A DNA stretch of 44,146 nucleotides from Fidelibacterota bacterium (GTDB lineage Bacteria > Fidelibacterota > Marinisomatia > Marinisomatales > UBA1611): NCBI GenBank assembly GCA_029936885.1, contig JAPYRR010000001.1, positions 48,477 through 92,622 of the forward strand, in the 5' to 3' direction. Below, piece after piece: positions 33,919 through 44,146 of this stretch; within the stretch, counting starts at the first letter, position 1, and each line of letters opens with the position of its first letter. The notes under the pieces were generated by a model that had not been told where the DNA came from, ran no database searches, and saw only the letters and a program-made list of their open reading frames with translations. The position numbers were made by a program, and so were the translations under genes.

Positions 33919-35307
33919 TTAATTGGGTACAGGAATGGGTCCATCCTCAGCTTTTTTCGGTTTCCTACTCTTAAAACTTGTAACTGTTATACCTGTAGAA
34001 AGATTAAATCCCTTCATGGTATGTAGCCATAATCCATTCCTGAAAGCAAATCCAAAATCAAAGATAATCGGACCTTTATGAATGCCAAAGCCTAAGGCTA
34101 ATTCCTTTAAATCCCCACCTCCCCAAGCATAACCGATTCGCATAGGGAGTGTTGAAATTCCGGTCCATTCCGTAGCGATAGACCATTTCCATTTTTGCCG
34201 GGCATAATACCTATTTTCAAATCCGGCAACCAAGTCTGATGCAAATAGAAAGTCATCTACTTTTTTGGATGCACCCAATCTAAATGTGGCAGGATATCTT
34301 GTGGTAAATACTGGTCTTTTACCATTAGCGAGGGTATCAACAAAAAAAGTCGTTTTATTCGTGAACAATGAATCATTATTTAATTTATCCATTCGAATCG
34401 TATCTATATTAAATGTGTATAAAATTGATTCATCTAAGTCAAGAGTATCATCCCCAAAGGCAAAAGGATAAAAATATTTTGTAAACGGATTTAGACTTGC
34501 ACTTTCATTTGAACTACCACCCTTATTCCATTGAATGGTACCAGCCAAATTGATCATGGATGCACCAAATGTCCACCCATTTATGGGTCTTGAAACCACA
34601 CCAATATCCAATCCAAACCCTGAACCACCCACACCTTGTCGAATAATATATTTTCCAGACCCATAAATTCCCAAATCATCTGTTTTCAAACTGGCAAAGG
34701 ATGAATCTTCATCAATTCCGAGATAAAAGAGACCTTGCAGGTATTTTAATGTGACACCAAACGACATTGTTTTAAATGGCAATCCAAATGAGAATCCAAA
34801 CTCATTTATCCCCACAATTTCATAATTAATTTCCAGATCAATGTCAGGTTTTTGGGCATTCCCGTAAAAAATAAGTTCCAATAATCCCAATGGTAATCGG
34901 TAATTCTGAAGAATAATATTGTTACTTGTGAAAGCAAGGTTTCCCTTAGAAATATTTAAGACGGGAATAGGCATATGTGTATCAATAAAAAATCCTAATC
35001 CATCTGAAGCTTCCAATTGATCAAACAATGCATCCTTTTCAACTGTATCCAAGGTATCACCACTATATTGTGCTACATTTTGGATTGAGAAAAAATTCCC
35101 GAGAAGTCCAAAATCAATTTGTGCTAATTGCATCATAAAGGGGCGATCTTGTTGGAGACCAATAATCCCCGGATTATATCCAACAGAAAAGATCCCGTCA
35201 GCAATGGTTGTATAGGTTCCTGCCATACCGACCACGCGGGGGTCCCGTTTGGTCTGGGCCTGAACGATTAATAATGATAGTAAAATGATTGGAATAAATT
35301 TTCTCAT
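33919..35307 (-). CDS. Predicted outer-membrane beta-barrel protein (DUF5723/PorV-like)
   Basis: A 462-residue protein with a signal peptide (MRKFIPIILLSLLIVQAQT). It then has RDPRVVGMAGTYTTIADGIFSVGYNPGIIGLQ, a motif typical of FadL/PorV-like barrels in FCB bacteria. Many alternating beta strands end in aromatic residues (FEFGFSFGLPFKTMSFGVTLKYL, FRLGASKKVDDFLFASDLVAGFENRYY). Assignment to DUF5723 is from memory and unconfirmed. Its ATG overlaps the stop of the giant lipoprotein gene (ATGA), so the two are probably made together and may interact at the outer membrane. Substrate or role unknown. Confidence 0.65.
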   Translation of the reverse strand: MRKFIPIILLSLLIVQAQTKRDPRVVGMAGTYTTIADGIFSVGYNPGIIGLQQDRPFMMQLAQIDFGLLGNFFSIQNVAQYSGDTLDTVEKDALFDQLEASDGLGFFIDTHMPIPVLNISKGNLAFTSNNIILQNYRLPLGLLELIFYGNAQKPDIDLEINYEIVGINEFGFSFGLPFKTMSFGVTLKYLQGLFYLGIDEDSSFASLKTDDLGIYGSGKYIIRQGVGGSGFGLDIGVVSRPINGWTFGASMINLAGTIQWNKGGSSNESASLNPFTKYFYPFAFGDDTLDLDESILYTFNIDTIRMDKLNNDSLFTNKTTFFVDTLANGKRPVFTTRYPATFRLGASKKVDDFLFASDLVAGFENRYYARQKWKWSIATEWTGISTLPMRIGYAWGGGDLKELALGFGIHKGPIIFDFGFAFRNGLWLHTMKGFNLSTGITVTSFKSRKPKKAEDGPIPVPN

Positions 35308-38300
35308 TTACTCTTTAGATTTAGTTTCGAATTCCTGGTAAAACGATTTCCAATTCCTGACCTGGAAGAATTCCGTACTTTGAGAAAATATCCATTAATA
35401 TCACATGATTTACCATCGGAAGAGATTATCTTGATCCGTAGAGAGTCAGTCTCATCTAATCCGCTAGATGAAAGATCCCATTCATAAGACCCAACATTTT
35501 CAATTCCAGATTCAATTTCTGTCCATTCATTTGCTATGACACAGTTTGCTGGTTTATAAATTTCAGCATTTCCAGATATAGCATAATACAGGTCGACAGA
35601 TTCTTCACTGGTACCAAAGGTCTTCCATAAAATTTCATAAGCCTGATCCAGGTACAATGTTTCCCCACCGTTGGGATAGGTGATCACGAGTTCATTTTCC
35701 ACTGATGCGAATGCACCCGAACTACTGAGCCTAAAAGTAATGAATGAACTAATTTCTAAATAATCTTCCACGGAAATAAAAACACCGATTGAATCTGTTC
35801 CCGGCAAATGGAACCGTGGCATTGTGTAATGACTCCCATAGTCTGTTAATAAGAAAATTTGCGATGTATCGATGGTACTGGTATAAATACCTTCACCAGG
35901 GACTGCTACCATTCCTTCCGGATAACCGGATGTATCATTTGCGCCATAATATTCGATTGGGTCTGGTAAGATAAACTTGAATAAAGTGTCTACATAAGAA
36001 ATGATTGTATCCGTTCCTGAACCATTGTATTTCACGATATAAGGGAGTTTTTCAATACATTCGGAAAAGTCTGTCATCACATTAAAAATGTAAACTCCAC
36101 CGCTATCGGGTGAAATGTCAGAACATTTTTTTAGGATATACAGACTATCTAATGGATTCAAGACTCCAATCGCCGCAAGTGTATCTCTAAAGAGTCCTAA
36201 TTGTTCTACAGTAGTATCGGTTGGGAAAAGTGAATCATTGCTCATCAATACGGAAATTTCGGCACCAAAAGGCATTGCATTCGTAATGGTCGATACAAGA
36301 TCGGTTTGGATAAGACTATTTCTTATTTTTGAACGGGCTTCATGGTCAAATTCTGTGATCTCAGTAGGTGTCCCTCCCATAAATGTCATGGGCTCCAGTT
36401 GAAGAACGAAAGGAATTGTAACACGAAATCCACCCTGAATTGCCTTCCCTGCTGCTATCTCACCACGGCCATCCACTTTTACTTCCGGTTTAATGATCAA
36501 CTGAACCGGGTTGGACGCCAATAGATCAATAATAGATGCACAGGTATCACATGGGGCTACCGTATTTAGATAAGATGGTAAACTATCATTGACAGATTCA
36601 TAAATTGTTATGGTTGTACCCAACTTATTCAACCCGATGATGGTCATTGCAGTATCTGTATCAGCATTTGTTGCGGGGAAACCGATAGTATCAATAATAA
36701 CAGGCATATAGGTTAGCTCACCAAGGGAATTGTATGCCTTGAATTCCATATTCATTTCAAGGGGCAAGCGAATCTGGTTTTTGAAAATGATCTCGATGAG
36801 GGCTTCAGTAGGAATTGCACCTGTGAATCCAGGAGGAAATTCCTGTGCTGTAGAATCACTTTCCATTACCATATATAAATTTGCTTCTAAACTCGAGAAG
36901 GACAATTGATCTAAATTCATATTCATGGTGAATTCACCTAATGATTCTGTATTCAGTGGAATTGTAGCATATTGGGATGGGATAGATACATCCAATTCTA
37001 AATCAAAACTACCCATTGCACTATCGGGGTAGCCGGGACTTTGAAGAGAATAATTCCGCATATCAAAAGTTTTGTTAATTACTAATCCGTTTGTTAGCAA
37101 TGTATCAATCTTTACAGAGTCTCCTCCGGCATCTGGAGAAAAGTTTTTAAAATTCATTAAAAAGCTCAAATCAAAAGGAAGGGTGCTTTTAAGATCACTA
37201 ATAATCAACTTATTCTCGTTATAAAGGGCATCATTATCCTTCAAGACAGCTCGATAAATCTCCATTTTTGATATCCCTGATTCAGACATATCCATCTCCG
37301 GGATCGACATATCCGGCATTTCTATTTCTTCTGAAAGCGAGTAATTATTTGTGGTTACATCAATAGCACTAATCCCAGCCATTTGAAAAAGAATATTGAA
37401 ATCCACAAAAAGAGACCCTGGAGGAATCGTGACAAAGTCCGCCGTAGACGAATCAAGTGTCATACTTGTTGCCATGTTTAAGAAACTGGTCAAGCCTTTT
37501 GCAGATAGGTTTGTTGTGTCTGCATATGTTTGATTCTGACTGATTGTCGGGGATTGGTTATGACTTGCCAAAGTATCAATCAGCGGGCTACCATTCCCAG
37601 TTACAATATAAGATTTTACTTTAGTTAAGTTTGTTGGTAATCCATTATTTGTAAAACTTGTGATATACACGCTAGAATCTTCACTGCTTGCAATGATCAA
37701 AGTATCAATACTTGCGATAATTGGTGGTTCAGCAGGTAATTCAAGAGAACTAAGTCCCAAATCAATCGTTGTATCTAACGCAGCAGATATTAAATCCATG
37801 GCTGCATTAAATAGATCCACAATAGCAGTATTATATAATTCTGCATCCATTGTCATCGTTGAACCGGCGGGAAAGGAAAAAGGAGTATAATCTGCAATTT
37901 TTAATGAAATTGTCGTATCGAATGGCTCTGGAGGTGTAACATTTGTATCGAGCATTGTAACAGTTGTATCTATATAATAATCTGCTGTATCCAGATATAT
38001 TAATGAATCATATAGCACAACATGGATTCGTTGAGGTATTTTTATTGCGGGGAGAACTATATCAATATTAATTCCAGGTATCATTGATGCGACTGGTTGG
38101 TTCAAATCCATTGGAACAGGAGGTAAATCTGGTAATGCCGTTGGTTCCATAGATCCTTCTTGAACTATCTTGAAACCAAGGGAATCATTTGTTAGGTAAA
38201 TCCCCGCAGACGAATCTGAAATATCAGACATTTGGTACTTTGTTTGAACGAGTGGAATCTTCAGATCAAGATACCATGTGACCATCTCAAATTTGTCGGG

Positions 38301-38405
38301 AATGTCAAAATCGCACGCCATTGTTCCCATTAAAAAAATGGAAAGGAACGCATGAATAAATCCTGCCTTCCAACGTGATAGGTTTTGTTTCAGATTTACC
38401 TTCAT
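35304..38405 (-). CDS. Giant exported lipoprotein, unknown function (1033 aa)
   Basis: From the ATG at 38405 the product begins MKVNLKQNLSRWKAGFIHAF with a hydrophobic signal and a lipobox-like GTMAC (Cys31). The body is acidic, rich in Asp, Ser, Thr and Leu, and has repeated beta-type segments (for example ...MDLNQPVASMIPG... and ...SLGEFTMNMNLDQL...). Near the C-terminus, ELVITYPNGGETLYLDQAYEILW resembles the Kre9/KNH-type Ser-Thr-rich surface domain. I do not recognise the main part. A longer frame (from 38474) would run into the ahcY terminator, so it is rejected. It overlaps the barrel gene by 4 nt. Confidence 0.75.
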   Translation of the reverse strand: MKVNLKQNLSRWKAGFIHAFLSIFLMGTMACDFDIPDKFEMVTWYLDLKIPLVQTKYQMSDISDSSAGIYLTNDSLGFKIVQEGSMEPTALPDLPPVPMDLNQPVASMIPGINIDIVLPAIKIPQRIHVVLYDSLIYLDTADYYIDTTVTMLDTNVTPPEPFDTTISLKIADYTPFSFPAGSTMTMDAELYNTAIVDLFNAAMDLISAALDTTIDLGLSSLELPAEPPIIASIDTLIIASSEDSSVYITSFTNNGLPTNLTKVKSYIVTGNGSPLIDTLASHNQSPTISQNQTYADTTNLSAKGLTSFLNMATSMTLDSSTADFVTIPPGSLFVDFNILFQMAGISAIDVTTNNYSLSEEIEMPDMSIPEMDMSESGISKMEIYRAVLKDNDALYNENKLIISDLKSTLPFDLSFLMNFKNFSPDAGGDSVKIDTLLTNGLVINKTFDMRNYSLQSPGYPDSAMGSFDLELDVSIPSQYATIPLNTESLGEFTMNMNLDQLSFSSLEANLYMVMESDSTAQEFPPGFTGAIPTEALIEIIFKNQIRLPLEMNMEFKAYNSLGELTYMPVIIDTIGFPATNADTDTAMTIIGLNKLGTTITIYESVNDSLPSYLNTVAPCDTCASIIDLLASNPVQLIIKPEVKVDGRGEIAAGKAIQGGFRVTIPFVLQLEPMTFMGGTPTEITEFDHEARSKIRNSLIQTDLVSTITNAMPFGAEISVLMSNDSLFPTDTTVEQLGLFRDTLAAIGVLNPLDSLYILKKCSDISPDSGGVYIFNVMTDFSECIEKLPYIVKYNGSGTDTIISYVDTLFKFILPDPIEYYGANDTSGYPEGMVAVPGEGIYTSTIDTSQIFLLTDYGSHYTMPRFHLPGTDSIGVFISVEDYLEISSFITFRLSSSGAFASVENELVITYPNGGETLYLDQAYEILWKTFGTSEESVDLYYAISGNAEIYKPANCVIANEWTEIESGIENVGSYEWDLSSSGLDETDSLRIKIISSDGKSCDINGYFLKVRNSSRSGIGNRFTRNSKLNLKSK

Positions 38406-38473
38406 TTTAGTGCCAATTGTGATTGGACTTCCGCATCGAAATTTGTGGAATAATTCTGAGAGAACCAAAAACA

Positions 38474-38503
38474 AAAAACCCCACTATTTCCCGCGGGGTT
38501 TTT
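38474..38503 (-). terminator. Intrinsic terminator downstream of ahcY
   Basis: AAAAACCCC (38474-38482) pairs with GGGGTTTTT (38495-38503), a 9-bp stem with a 12-nt loop. On the minus strand the stem ends in GGGGTTTTTTG followed by another T-run, the classic terminator shape, 23 nt after the ahcY stop. It ends the SAM-cycle transcript and isolates the lipoprotein gene, whose promoter must lie at 38406-38473. Confidence 0.85.
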
Positions 38504-38525: not shown

Positions 38526-39911
38526 TTAATATCGATAGTTTTCTGGTTTGAAAGGCCCATCTTTTGGCACATGAATATAGTCAGCTTGTGCATCTGTCAT
38601 TTGAGTTAAAACTCCCCCAAATCCACCGACCATACCCGCTGCAACTTCCTCATCAAGTTTCTTTGGAAGAACTTCAACAGTAATGTTTGATAATTTTTCA
38701 TCCGATGCCAAATCTGCAAATTTGGCATCAAACAAATGTATTTGGGCTAAAACCTGGTTCGCAAATGATCCATCCATAATACGAGATGGGTGACCGGTAG
38801 CATTCCCAAGATTGACCAATCGACCTTCCGATAATAATATTAAATAATCATTTTTATTGTCACTTCTAAATATCCGATGCACTTGGGGTTTCACTTCGTC
38901 CCACTGCCAATTATCTCTCATAAATTGGGTATCAATTTCATTATCAAAATGACCAATGTTACAAACCACCGCACCTGATTTGACAGTTTCTAACATAGCA
39001 CGATCACAAACATTTATGTTACCAGTCGTCGTAACAATTAAATCGGTGGTAGTAAGTAGTTCTCTGTTAATACCATCAACTGTACCCGTGTTAATTCCGT
39101 CATGATAAGGAGAAATAACTTCGAACCCATCCATACATGCCTGCATTGCGCAAATTGGATCAATCTCGCTAATCTTTACAATCATCCCTTCTTGACGTAA
39201 AGATTGTGCTGAACCCTTTCCTACATCACCATATCCAATGACCAAAGCTTTTTTCCCAGCCATAAGAATATCTGTGCCACGTTTAATAGCATCATTTAAT
39301 GAATGGCGACATCCATATTTATTATCATTTTTTGATTTAGTTACCGAATCATTCACATTTATCACTGGAACTTTAAGAGAGCCTTCTTCAACCATCTCTA
39401 ACAAGCGATGAACACCCGTTGTGGTTTCTTCACTAATACCATGAATCTTATCTAGCATTTCAGGATATTTTTCATGCAACATTTGGGTTAGATCGCCCCC
39501 ATCATCCAAAACCATATTGGCATCCCAAGGATTACCATCTTTTAGGATGGTTTGCTCAATACACCATAAAAATTCTTCTTCTGTTTCGCCTTTCCATGCA
39601 AATGTTGGAATTCCAGCCTTCACCATTGATGCCGCTGCATGATCTTGAGTAGAAAAAATATTGCAGGATGACCACCGAACCTTTGCACCTAAATCTACAA
39701 GTGTTTCCATCAAGACAGCGGTTTGAATTGTCATGTGAATACACCCCAGAATATTTGCGCCAGCCAAGGGTTGTGATTCTTTGTATTTTGCACGAAGTTT
39801 CATGAGTGCAGGCATTTCTGATTCTGCAAGTTCTACTTCTTTTCGACCATAATCGGCTAAAGATAAATCAGCTACTTTATAGTCATTATTTAATATTGTA
39901 GGATTGTTCAT
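38526..39911 (-). CDS. ahcY: Adenosylhomocysteinase (SAH hydrolase)
   Basis: AhcY reversibly splits S-adenosylhomocysteine to adenosine and homocysteine, removing the inhibitory product of methylation. The 461-residue product shows the substrate region [15 protein letters not shown] and [10 protein letters not shown], the NAD-binding [30 protein letters not shown] and the C-terminal [19 protein letters not shown] signature. An in-frame TTG at 39923 precedes the ATG at 39911, but GGAG (39921-39918) overlaps that TTG and serves as ribosome binding site for the ATG, so I choose the ATG. An SAH riboswitch lies just upstream and an intrinsic terminator follows. Confidence 0.97.
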
Positions 39912-39940
39912 TTTTTTCTCCAAAAAAGAGTTAAATCAAA

Positions 39941-40001
39941 TGAACGTCGTTTTTAAAACCAAGCCTGATCAGAAATAAACTCCAATGCAACGCTCCTTGG
40001 T
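39941..40001 (-). ncRNA. S-adenosylhomocysteine (SAH) riboswitch upstream of ahcY
   Basis: On the minus strand, from 40001, P1 is ACCAAG (40001-39996) paired with CUUGGU (39963-39958). It is followed by the conserved GAGCGUUGCA. P2 is AUUGGAG (39986-39980) paired with UUCUGAU (39974-39968) around UUUAU, then the conserved CAGG leading into P1. The pseudoknot P4 forms between GAGCGU (39995-39990) and ACGUUC (39947-39942) with one G-U. This matches the SAH riboswitch core (AGGAGCGCUGC ... CAGGCU) and topology as I recall them from the characterised Ralstonia element. It ends about 20 nt before the ahcY ribosome binding site. Known members raise ahcY expression when SAH accumulates. Confidence 0.85.
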
Positions 40002-40015
40002 ATATGAAATTTAAT

Positions 40016-41191
40016 TTATTTTTGTTCTAATAATTGTTGAACCATATCCGTTTTTTCCCAAGTGAATAGATCCAACTCACGACCGAAATGACCATACGCT
40101 GCAGTTTGTCTATACCGCGGACTCTTCAATTTTAAATGGGCAACTATTTCACCGGGTCTTACAGGAAATACTTTTTTTGCAATTTCGGTAAGTTTTTCAT
40201 CACTCATTTCACCTGTTCCAAATGATTTCACATAAAATGAGGTTGGTTCTGCAACACCAATACCATAAGATAATTGGACTTCACATTTATCCGCAAGCCC
40301 AGCTGCTACTATATTTTTGGCAATATATCGAGCCATATACGTTGCACTACGATCCACTTTGGAAGGGTCTTTACCCGAGAAGGCACCCCCGCCATGAGGA
40401 GCATATCCACCATAGGTATCAACAATAATTTTTCGACCGGTTAATCCAGTATCTGCTTCAGGTCCACCGTAAACAAACCGGCCTGTACCATTCACAATAA
40501 AATCTTCAGAGTAAGGATAATCAAAAGAATCTAAAACAGGCTTTATAATATGCTGAATTACTTCTCTTTTTACAAATTCCAGTTCTTTTTCTACTGTCAC
40601 ATATTCTGTCAACATATCATCATGCTGGGTAGCAATAACAACCTTTTCTACAGAAATGGGTTTTCCATCATCGTAACTGACTGATACTTGCGATTTTCCA
40701 TCCGGACGAAGCCAAGGTAACGACCCATTTTTTCTCAATTTTGTTAATCTTTCTGTAAGCCGATGAGCAATCTGGATTGGGAGTGGCATGAGTTCGGGTG
40801 TTTCATTGCAAGCATATCCAAACATGAGTCCCTGATCACCTGCACCTTGTTCGGAAATATCTTCAGAATCAACACCCTGTGCAATTTCCGGACTTTGTTC
40901 ATGAAGCATAGAAATAACTTGAACATCATCCGGGTCAATACCACTATTCTCTTTATGATATCCAATATCCCTAATAGTTTGTTTCACAATTTTTTCTACT
41001 TCGGTGAATCCATTAGTGCGGACCTCACCGGATACCACAACAACCCCCTTAGTTACTAAAGTTTCACACGCCACATGTGCATTAGGATCACTAGATAAAA
41101 TATCATCTAAAATTGCATCCGAAATTGCATCACATGCTTTATCCGGATGCCCTTCCGTGACAGATTCTGATGTAAATAAATATTTGCTCAA
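40016..41191 (-). CDS. metK: S-adenosylmethionine synthetase
   Basis: MetK makes SAM from methionine and ATP. The 391-residue product begins [25 protein letters not shown] (first residue read as Met), then [55 protein letters not shown] and the late AAYGHFGRE, all canonical. The open frame extends 47 codons further to 41332, but those residues do not belong to the family and overlap metF. I place the start at the TTG at 41191, with AGGA about 8 nt upstream. It lies between metF and the SAH riboswitch-ahcY unit. Confidence 0.95.
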
Positions 41192-41264
41192 TTTTGTTTC
41201 CTGTTTTTTTGTTCGTTTTTTTAAATACTCAAACAAATTTAGTGCAAAAATTACCAAATTCCAT

Positions 41265-42212
41265 TTATGAATACTGCTTTGATTTAATACAAAATTCACG
41301 GTAAATGCGTGCCAATTCCTGAAGCATTTCAACCGACGATTGAAAATTGTAAGACATAATATGTTCTACATTTAATCCAATAGGGACTTTCAAATTATTC
41401 TCTGTAATAAAGTTTAATGTATCATTCAATACTTCGATGGCAACATCCAGTGATCTTTCAATCATAGACCCCGGTCTTCCCTGTAAATATCGTTCTGTTT
41501 CAGTCGGGATTTCAACACCAAGCCATTTTAAAAATTCAATATTCTTTTGGGATGATACGGGAGCAAAACTCAAAAGTAAGCGACGTGGGAATGTGTTGAG
41601 TTCATCACACCTATCTTGGTAATGACCAATCATTTTTACAATATTGGACGAATCGTATAATACTTGTGTTGTGAAAAATTCGCAACCATTCTCACTTTTC
41701 TTGATCAAATTCTTTGATTCTCTTTCCCGACTTGGAATTGCAATTCCGCCACAAAATATATCACCACCGTGTTGGTTAAATTCTCTTGAGATTGATTTTA
41801 AAACTTCATTTACAGATGGTCCCGGATAATCAACATTACTGGATTCACCACCCACTATAATCATATTTTCAATTTCGTATTCCTTGTTTGTCTCTTCGAT
41901 CCATTTCATTTGGGCATCATAAGGTTCATGAACAACTACTCGATTCACAATAGCTTCCACACCGACTATATCCTGTAGAAGTTGCCCAAATTCTCTTGGT
42001 TCACCCCGTTTTTGATTTGCGACTGGGCGTTCACCACGACCATTTTCATCCAATACTTCCGGAATATTAATAGCGTCAATATGGGTTTGTGACAGAAGCG
42101 AACTAATGATCTCAGCATAGGAATTCAAAGTACCATCTTTTTCCCTAGGTGGTAAAATTTCGTAGGCAACGACCGGCCTTTGCGGTTTTTTAATTTTGTC
42201 TCGTATTCTCAT
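41265..42212 (-). CDS. metF: Divergent methylenetetrahydrofolate reductase (MetF-like)
   Basis: MTHFR makes 5-methyltetrahydrofolate, the methyl donor for MetH. The 315-residue product has the TIM-barrel layout of the family. [11 protein letters not shown] replaces the usual EFFPPK start; [24 protein letters not shown] and [19 protein letters not shown] follow. The N-terminal motif is unusual, so it belongs to a noncanonical branch and its cofactor (FAD/NADH or other) is uncertain. Its position 24 bp after metH strongly supports the role. The 73-bp gap to metK contains only an A/T-rich leader. Confidence 0.8.
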
Positions 42213-42236: not shown

Positions 42237-44146
42237 TTAAATATTTTTTAACACACTGAAATATTGTGACTCAGGATGAGCAAAATACCATCCGCAAACA
42301 GAAGCTGCAGGCCACATGGCACGCGTTTCAGTCAATGAAACACCAATAGCATTTTCAACATCTAAAAGTTTCCATATTTTGTCTTTTTCTGCGTGATCAG
42401 GACAACTTGGATAACCCGGTGCTGGCCGAATTCCCTGGTATCTTTCCTTGATCATTTCTTCGTTTGAATAGATCTCATCAGACCCAAAACCCCAATCATC
42501 TTTTCTTATTTTTTCATGAAGCCATTCTGCTGCCGCCTCTGCGAAACGATCTGCCAATACTTTAACCATGATTGCATTATAATCATCATGGTCTGATTCA
42601 AACTGTTTAACAAGTTTATCCAAACCGTGACCGGCCGTTACGGTGAAAATCCCAATATGATCATCTCCATTTGGTGAAATAAAATCAGCCAAACAAAAAT
42701 TAGGTTTATTCCCTTTATCAATTAATTGACGAGGGAAACTAAATGTGATATCATTTTCAGGAAGTAAAACATTTTCATTTATAGATTTTGCAGGAAAAAT
42801 CCCGTACACAGCCTTGGCTGTAATTGTATCATTTTGTAATAGGGTTTCCAACATAGCCTGAACATCATTAAACAGTTTAGTGGCTTCTACACCTTTCTTG
42901 GGGTCCGTTAAAATTTCCGGATATGTCCCTTTAAATTCCCATGCGTGAAAAAAAGGTGACCAATCGATATAATTCTTTAACTCATTTAAGGATATGGATT
43001 CAATTTTTTGAATTCCTGGTTTTTGGGGTTGAACAGGAGAATAGTCCAATTTAATTTTTCTGTCTCTTGCTCTTTCAATTGATAAAAGTTTTATCTTTTG
43101 TTGGTTTTGGTAAAAAGTTTCTCGGATTGATTCATATTCTTTTCGGGTGGAACTGACCAATTCTTTTTTATGTTCTGGATTTAAAAGTTTGCTGACAACT
43201 CCCACACATCTGCTGGCATCAATTACATGAATAACGGATGAGGCATATTTTTCTTCAATTTTCACTGCTGTATGTTTTCGGCTGGTTGTTGCACCACCGA
43301 TCAATAGGGGAATATTAAATTTTTGTCGTTCCATTTCTGATGCCACATGAACCATTTCATCCAGACTTGGCGTAATGAGACCGGAAAGACCAATGATATC
43401 TGCATTGACTTCAATTGCTTTGGATAATATTTTATCTGTGGGAACCATGACGCCCAAGTCAATTATGGTATAGCCATTACACCCCAACACAACGCCTACA
43501 ATATTTTTTCCAATATCATGAACATCTCCTTTTACCGTGGCCATAACAATGGTTCCATTGGAGATATCTTTTAGTCCTTTTTCTTCTTTCTCTTTTTCAA
43601 TAAATGGGACCAAATGCGCCACTGCTTTTTTCATGACACGAGCCGATTTCACAACTTGGGGCAAAAACATTTTTCCCGATCCGAATAGATCTCCAACCCG
43701 ATTCATGCCATCCATTAAAGGCCCTTCTATCACATGGATAGGACGATCCAAATGATTCCGCGCTTCTTCCGTATCTTCAACAATAAATTTATCATTGCCT
43801 TCAACCAGCGCGTAAGATATTCTTTCTTCGATTGGGAATGATCGCCACTCATTATTTTCTTTTCTCTCCCGTTTGGTCCCAATAAATCCCTCAGCCGATT
43901 CCACTAATCTGTCCGTGGCATCGGGATGACGATCGAACAAAACATTTTCGATAGCATCTCGAAATGCCGGATCAATATCATCATAAACAACTAATTGACC
44001 CGCATTAACTATTCCCATGTCCATTCCATTTTGGATGGCATGATACAGAAAACAGGAATGCATGGCTTCACGTACCCCATTATTCCCACGAAATGAGAAT
44101 GAAAGATTACTCACACCACCACTGACATGAACGAGGGGCATTTTTT
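42237..44146 (-). CDS. metH: Cobalamin-dependent methionine synthase, C-terminal part (partial)
   Basis: MetH transfers the methyl group of methyltetrahydrofolate to homocysteine through cobalamin. The visible 636 or so residues begin in the end of the pterin domain ([36 protein letters not shown]). The cap domain follows ([41 protein letters not shown]). The B12 domain carries the cobalt-ligand histidine in GDVHDIGKN (His208 counted from the first Met). Then come [15 protein letters not shown] and the activation domain with [12 protein letters not shown] and [23 protein letters not shown]. The N-terminal homocysteine domain lies outside the window or may be on a separate gene. It is followed by metF. 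Confidence 0.95.

Follow-up and report, generated by a model that had tools for sequence, protein, structure and literature searches.

The SAH riboswitch (Rfam RF01057) has been described mostly from beta- and gammaproteobacteria, with copies in Mycobacteriaceae (PMC3766115, PMC4239095). Another RNA leader of metK/ahcY operons, the SAM-Chlorobi motif, is found in a phylum of the FCB group (PMC2864571). A search of the literature yielded no report of an SAH riboswitch in Marinimicrobia.

Here we describe such an element in a window of 44,146 nucleotides (the whole stretch of DNA that was analysed) from the genome of a marine bacterium of the Fidelibacterota/Marinimicrobia. In common with the RF01057 class, the element has the conserved core and the P1/P2/P4 layout, forms the leader of ahcY and scores above the gathering threshold; different from the class, the copy in the window is AT-rich, resides in Fidelibacterota/Marinimicrobia after an almost certain transfer, and lies in a metK-ahcY string, with no dedicated promoter recognizable. 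The aptamer class and the target gene are those of the beta- and gammaproteobacterial SAH riboswitches (ahcY and metF regulons), whose P4 region often pairs elsewhere, e.g. with the Shine-Dalgarno sequence, outside the start-codon register (PMC4239095). The ahcY leaders of Thioglobaceae share with the window an aptamer of up to 84% identity, the complementarity between a P4 strand and the start codon, and the type of AhcY; they mostly carry TATAAT about 9 nt before P1, GCUC in P4 and AGC or AGU as codon 2, whereas the window has no TATAAT, GUUC and AAC. The SAM-Chlorobi motif, which likewise leads metK/ahcY operons and belongs to a phylum of the FCB group, is unrelated and located upstream of the operon (PMC2864571), and it has no Rfam match in the window. 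Overall, we are quite confident that the window contains a genuine SAH riboswitch, which would bind SAH, came in a Thioglobaceae-like cassette that replaced the native gene in place, and would act as an ON switch at the start codon.

The riboswitch element and its gene string

Rfam cmscan of the window yielded RF01057 as the sole match above gathering, at 40004–39935 on the minus strand (42.7 bits, with a gathering threshold of 37, and E = 1e-4); the alignment covers the full length of the model (positions 1–78). Genome-wide, there was a single SAH match (E = 9e-7). A preliminary description had placed an SAH riboswitch at 39941–40001, directly upstream of ahcY, with a P1 of only 6 bp, a P2 rich in G-U pairs and a P4 pseudoknot containing one G-U pair. 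The covariance-model match bears out the class and the location, with ahcY downstream (ATG at 39911) and metK on the other side, and the helices agree as detailed below; the element itself is somewhat larger, spanning 39935–40004.

P1 is formed by ACCAAG (39996–40001) and CUUGGU (39958–39963), which make 6/6 pairs; it is weak past 6 bp in the window, and the outermost pair is broken in the copy of genome G127. P2 (39968–39986, AUUGGAGUUUAUUUCUGAU) is a G-U rich stem-loop that folds alone at −2.1 kcal/mol and is predicted to have 7 bp with several G-U pairs; a P2 stem is present in 7/7 Marinimicrobia copies, the sequences of which differ. The P4 strands GAGCGUUG (5′ strand, 39988–39995) and CGACGUUC (3′ strand, 39942–39949) form 8 standard pairs, including the G-U pair noted earlier plus an inner U-G wobble that is near-invariant across the whole SAH family. 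Comparison with related leaders, which the preliminary description had proposed, showed pair-preserving changes in both P1 and P4. The third pair of P4 is G-C in 57/57 Thioglobaceae, and A-U in 4/7 and G-U in 3/7 Marinimicrobia; the leaders were selected with a pattern that restricts some of the P4 letters, and the percentage of paired P4 is therefore partly built in. P4 provides support beyond the RF01057 score because the scored Rfam model has no P4 pairs. In the alignment to the RF01057 model the unpaired core (GGAGCGnUGCA, CAGGCU and AACG) is kept in the window, and it is near intact in all seven Marinimicrobia copies, the exception being one base before AGGCU in G130. The element is thus an SAH-class riboswitch, ordinary as a class member, with SAH binding and regulation predicted from its sequence.

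The gene order is metH-type gene, MTHFR-like gene, metK, riboswitch, ahcY and terminator-like hairpin, all on the minus strand, as are the RNA features described here. The B12-dependent methionine synthase gene of the metH type (42237–44141; Pfam Met_synt_B12 and B12-binding domains) is probably incomplete at the edge of the window; Pterin_bind is matched only by its end, at the start of the gene. It is followed by the MTHFR-like gene (41265–42212; PF02219, 31.5 bits) and by metK (40016–41191), the gene of S-adenosylmethionine synthetase, the TTG start of which was inferred (the Pfam match was obtained on 40016–41209) and the stop codon of which ends at 40016. The ahcY gene (38526–39911) codes for S-adenosylhomocysteine hydrolase (Pfam AdoHcyase, 403 bits) and has a Shine-Dalgarno sequence GGAG at 39918–39921. 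The hairpin with T run just 3′ of ahcY (38474–38503) is terminator-like by consensus match only. Together these genes make up a string for the activated-methyl cycle, the last member of which, ahcY, is preceded by the switch. Behind ahcY, the window contains a reading frame of 1056 aa (35304–38474) without Pfam match. The same genome also encodes a further, distant AhcY-like protein of 36% identity (G000:C124:47759-49009, L036), and distant AhcY-like proteins similar to it are present in G127, G128 and G144.

Origin of ahcY and its leader

The element was found in 7 of the 245 genomes of the phylum, which belong to two genera of one family; the other genera of this family are without it. In Thioglobaceae, the same riboswitch precedes ahcY in 63 of 83 genomes. 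The AhcY of the window is 86–92% identical to the proteins of the six other carriers and 52–57% (best segment) to those of other family members having one. Outside the phylum, proteins of the Thioglobaceae type match best (84–88% identical), and the next gammaproteobacterial AhcY reaches at most 80%. In the AhcY tree the seven carriers form one clade (97/91) that groups with Thioglobaceae (100/98), and the native Marinimicrobia AhcY constitutes a separate clade (100/100), far from the carriers. The aptamers gave a similar picture, with a mean identity of 0.72 to Thioglobaceae (up to 0.84) versus 0.46 to other Proteobacteria, although an aptamer-only tree, given the short sequence, does not resolve the exact donor. 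The metK gene adjoining the switch is of the native Marinimicrobia type in the tree; a transfer of metK together with ahcY was rejected on this ground. In the switch-free relatives, native ahcY is located directly 3′ of the same metK, mostly a few nt apart. Given the foreign AhcY of the carriers and the native ahcY behind the same metK in relatives, riboswitch and ahcY arrived together and replaced the native ahcY. Trees and identities point to Thioglobaceae-like gammaproteobacteria (sulfur-oxidizing relatives of Thioglobus) as the source, almost certainly.

Carriers confined to two genera of one family, with the element always at metK-ahcY, could also reflect an ancient Marinimicrobia riboswitch that was inherited vertically and lost from most of the phylum. 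However, the ahcY behind the switch is gammaproteobacterial, unlike all ahcY genes found in the rest of the family, 238 of the 245 genomes are without the element, and the native metK-ahcY junction, mostly a few nt, is too small for a switch. Vertical inheritance was rejected on the basis of the AhcY tree and these junctions and is, in our judgement, highly improbable. The genomes resemble metagenome bins (many contigs, incomplete), so that in principle a Thioglobaceae contig could have been put into a Marinimicrobia genome by binning or assembly. Yet in each of seven genomes from two genera, a Marinimicrobia metK and the foreign ahcY immediately 3′ of it share a contig, and the AhcY proteins of the carriers form a clade of their own; the artefact was rejected because the junction is common to all seven genomes, and we assign it a negligible probability.

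The acquisition from Thioglobaceae-like bacteria bears on the wider range of the class that the preliminary description had put forward. Marinimicrobia are a new lineage for the SAH riboswitch, the range of which is extended accordingly, but the element came by gene transfer and is no old trait of the lineage. The locus represents a clear case of riboswitch spread, in which the switch travelled along with its gene and a native ortholog was replaced in place. Genome G124, from the same genus as the window, retains a native-type ahcY, and the AhcY and metK trees disagree on the mixing of the two carrier genera; these observations make a further transfer of the cassette within the family possible. 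In identity, the metK of the window is closer to its counterpart in G124, with native ahcY (88%), than to those in the riboswitch-bearing G125, G128, G129 and G130 (72–75%), a hint of a recombination breakpoint located between metK and the riboswitch.

Donor-type and Marinimicrobia leaders differ in the region before P1. TATAAT is present within 40 nt of P1 in 50/57 Thioglobaceae leaders, mostly exactly 9 nt before P1, which puts P1 near the 5′ end of the transcript in these bacteria. None of the seven Marinimicrobia copies has TATAAT before P1, a dedicated sigma-70 promoter at this position was rejected on that account, and no promoter-like site was found before P1 in the window. The cassette that replaced native ahcY behind the native metK would have shed the dedicated promoter of the donor, and the switch would now reside inside the methyl-cycle string of metH, MTHFR-like gene, metK, switch and ahcY. 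Here it has probably become an element within the operon transcript, acting on ahcY only.

Proposed pairing of the P4 strand with the ahcY start codon

The sequence GUUCAUUU (39938–39945), which overlaps the 3′ strand of P4, is a perfect 8-bp complement of AAAUGAAC (39906–39913), which consists of two A, the start codon of ahcY and codon 2. It is probable that the functional unit extends as far as about 39906, within codon 2. Pairing across the AUG and codon 2 is possible in 7/7 Marinimicrobia and 57/57 Thioglobaceae leaders. The mean energy of the anti-start duplex was −10.0 kcal/mol in Marinimicrobia, versus −4.4±0.7 in shuffled sequences, and −12.9 kcal/mol in Thioglobaceae, versus −5.3±0.2; none of the 200 composition-preserving shuffles reached the observed energies. 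Duplexes of P4 strand and start region combined across the two clades were weaker (−8.4 and −6.6) than those within clades (−10.2 and −12.1).

In predicted folds the accessibility of the AUG in Marinimicrobia increased from 0.01 to 0.76 upon withdrawal of the P4 strands, with a rise in 7/7 leaders; these values refer to a bound state that was imposed (P1 imposed, P4 strands withdrawn) rather than predicted, and to folding energies that ignore pseudoknot and ligand. For Thioglobaceae, the accessibility went from 0.00 to 0.52 (a rise of more than 0.2 in 53/55), and in other Proteobacteria it was unchanged (0.37 to 0.39). The other Proteobacteria do not have the start-codon helix in this register, and the idea that it characterizes the class as a whole was rejected.

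Participation of the strand in P4 excludes its participation in the anti-start helix, and the arrangement would therefore constitute an ON switch for translation. Most likely, the riboswitch masks and unmasks the start codon of ahcY, as modelled from the alternative pairings. At low SAH, the P4 3′ strand GUUCAUUU would pair with AAAUGAAC and hide the start codon. When SAH rises, its binding to the P1/P2/P4 aptamer would keep the strand in the P4 pseudoknot, which would expose the start codon and allow AhcY to be made and to remove SAH. We infer from this scheme that SAH is bound, that the direction is ON and that the translation of ahcY alone is controlled within the operon. The SAH riboswitch was reportedly found to be activated by SAH by Wang et al. 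in 2008, i.e. in the same direction as proposed here.

The riboswitch could instead act mainly on transcription (terminator/antiterminator or Rho) or by masking the Shine-Dalgarno sequence. The P4 3′ region indeed pairs with the Shine-Dalgarno region in many other proteobacterial copies, and in the window the GGAG can also be sequestered in a CUC/GGAG mini-hairpin. On the other hand, the mean accessibility of the Shine-Dalgarno sequence stays steady with P4 (0.47 to 0.49), compared with the increase from 0.01 to 0.76 for the AUG, and the interval from P4 to ahcY contains no terminator-like hairpin on the strand of the gene, for which reason a transcription terminator was rejected there. We regard these modes of control as unlikely relative to masking of the start codon.

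Codon 2 of ahcY and loss of the switch

Thioglobaceae leaders combine GCUC in the 3′ strand of P4 and GAG or GGG in the 5′ strand with AGC or AGU (one GGU) as the second codon of ahcY. The Marinimicrobia leaders have GUUC in the 3′ strand and GAA (4 copies), GAG (2) or GGG (1) in the 5′ strand, and 7/7 use AAC as the second codon. At the second position of codon 2, G thus accompanies the P4 base C in 57/57 leaders and A accompanies U in 7/7, but the C-to-U and codon changes are a single event on one branch and the correlation is therefore of limited statistical weight. One base keeps both pairings through the change from Ser (AGC) to Asn (AAC). Both codon types are common in riboswitch-free gammaproteobacterial ahcY genes (AGY in 29/75, AAY in 16/75). 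Eight ahcY genes of Thioglobaceae with a readable start are without a riboswitch match, and seven of these have no recognizable element. Codon 2 is AGY in 0/7 of the element-free genes (AAU, AAC, GAC and UUA are found instead), which represent about four independent cases, since four of the seven seem to form one clade. The eighth gene, with an internally deleted riboswitch, keeps AUGAGU.

We consider it reasonably probable that a riboswitch-gene cassette crossed phyla and displaced the native gene within the operon, that the start codon and the second codon serve as expression platform with one base tied both to its P4 partner and to residue 2 (C accompanying Ser and U accompanying Asn), and that the preference at codon 2 vanishes when the switch is lost. 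The second codon of the protein would then be part of the switch, in an expression platform that is specific, and the genomes that lost the switch provide natural controls.

A leader that merely came along with ahcY and lost SAH sensing in the new host would fit the score of the window copy, which is below that of donor copies (42.7 versus up to 62.4 bits), the weak P2 and the lost promoter, as well as the loss or erosion of the switch in some Thioglobaceae. Such a relic would not be expected to have the unpaired core near intact in 7/7 copies (apart from the base in G130), P4 paired through changes from G-C to G-U or A-U, and the anti-start helix retained after the change in the P4 strand; we judge it improbable and favour a working start-codon switch.

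Several further observations were made in Thioglobaceae. A second copy of the SAH riboswitch precedes metF-like genes at four loci (L183, L186, L190 and L195, in G259, G262, G270 and G253). These copies carry AUGAGC and a short ORF, which in three of the four (L186, L190 and L195) resembles a decayed AhcY N-terminus; they look like duplications of the riboswitch together with the beginning of ahcY, which would have been retained as a leader ORF. The riboswitch-free ahcY genes L237, L239, L240 and L241 (G282, G283, G291 and G286) have a GTG start about 5 nt after TATAAT, suggesting that the whole leader was deleted and that the mRNA is leaderless. The riboswitch at L236 (G285) has an internal deletion in which the 3′ sides of P2 and P1 are missing and the P4 strand and AUGAGU are kept; it is apparently a decaying copy. 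At L140 and L147 (G301 and G306), the distance from P4 to the start of ahcY is about 150 nt, yet GCUCAU and AUGAGC/U are kept.
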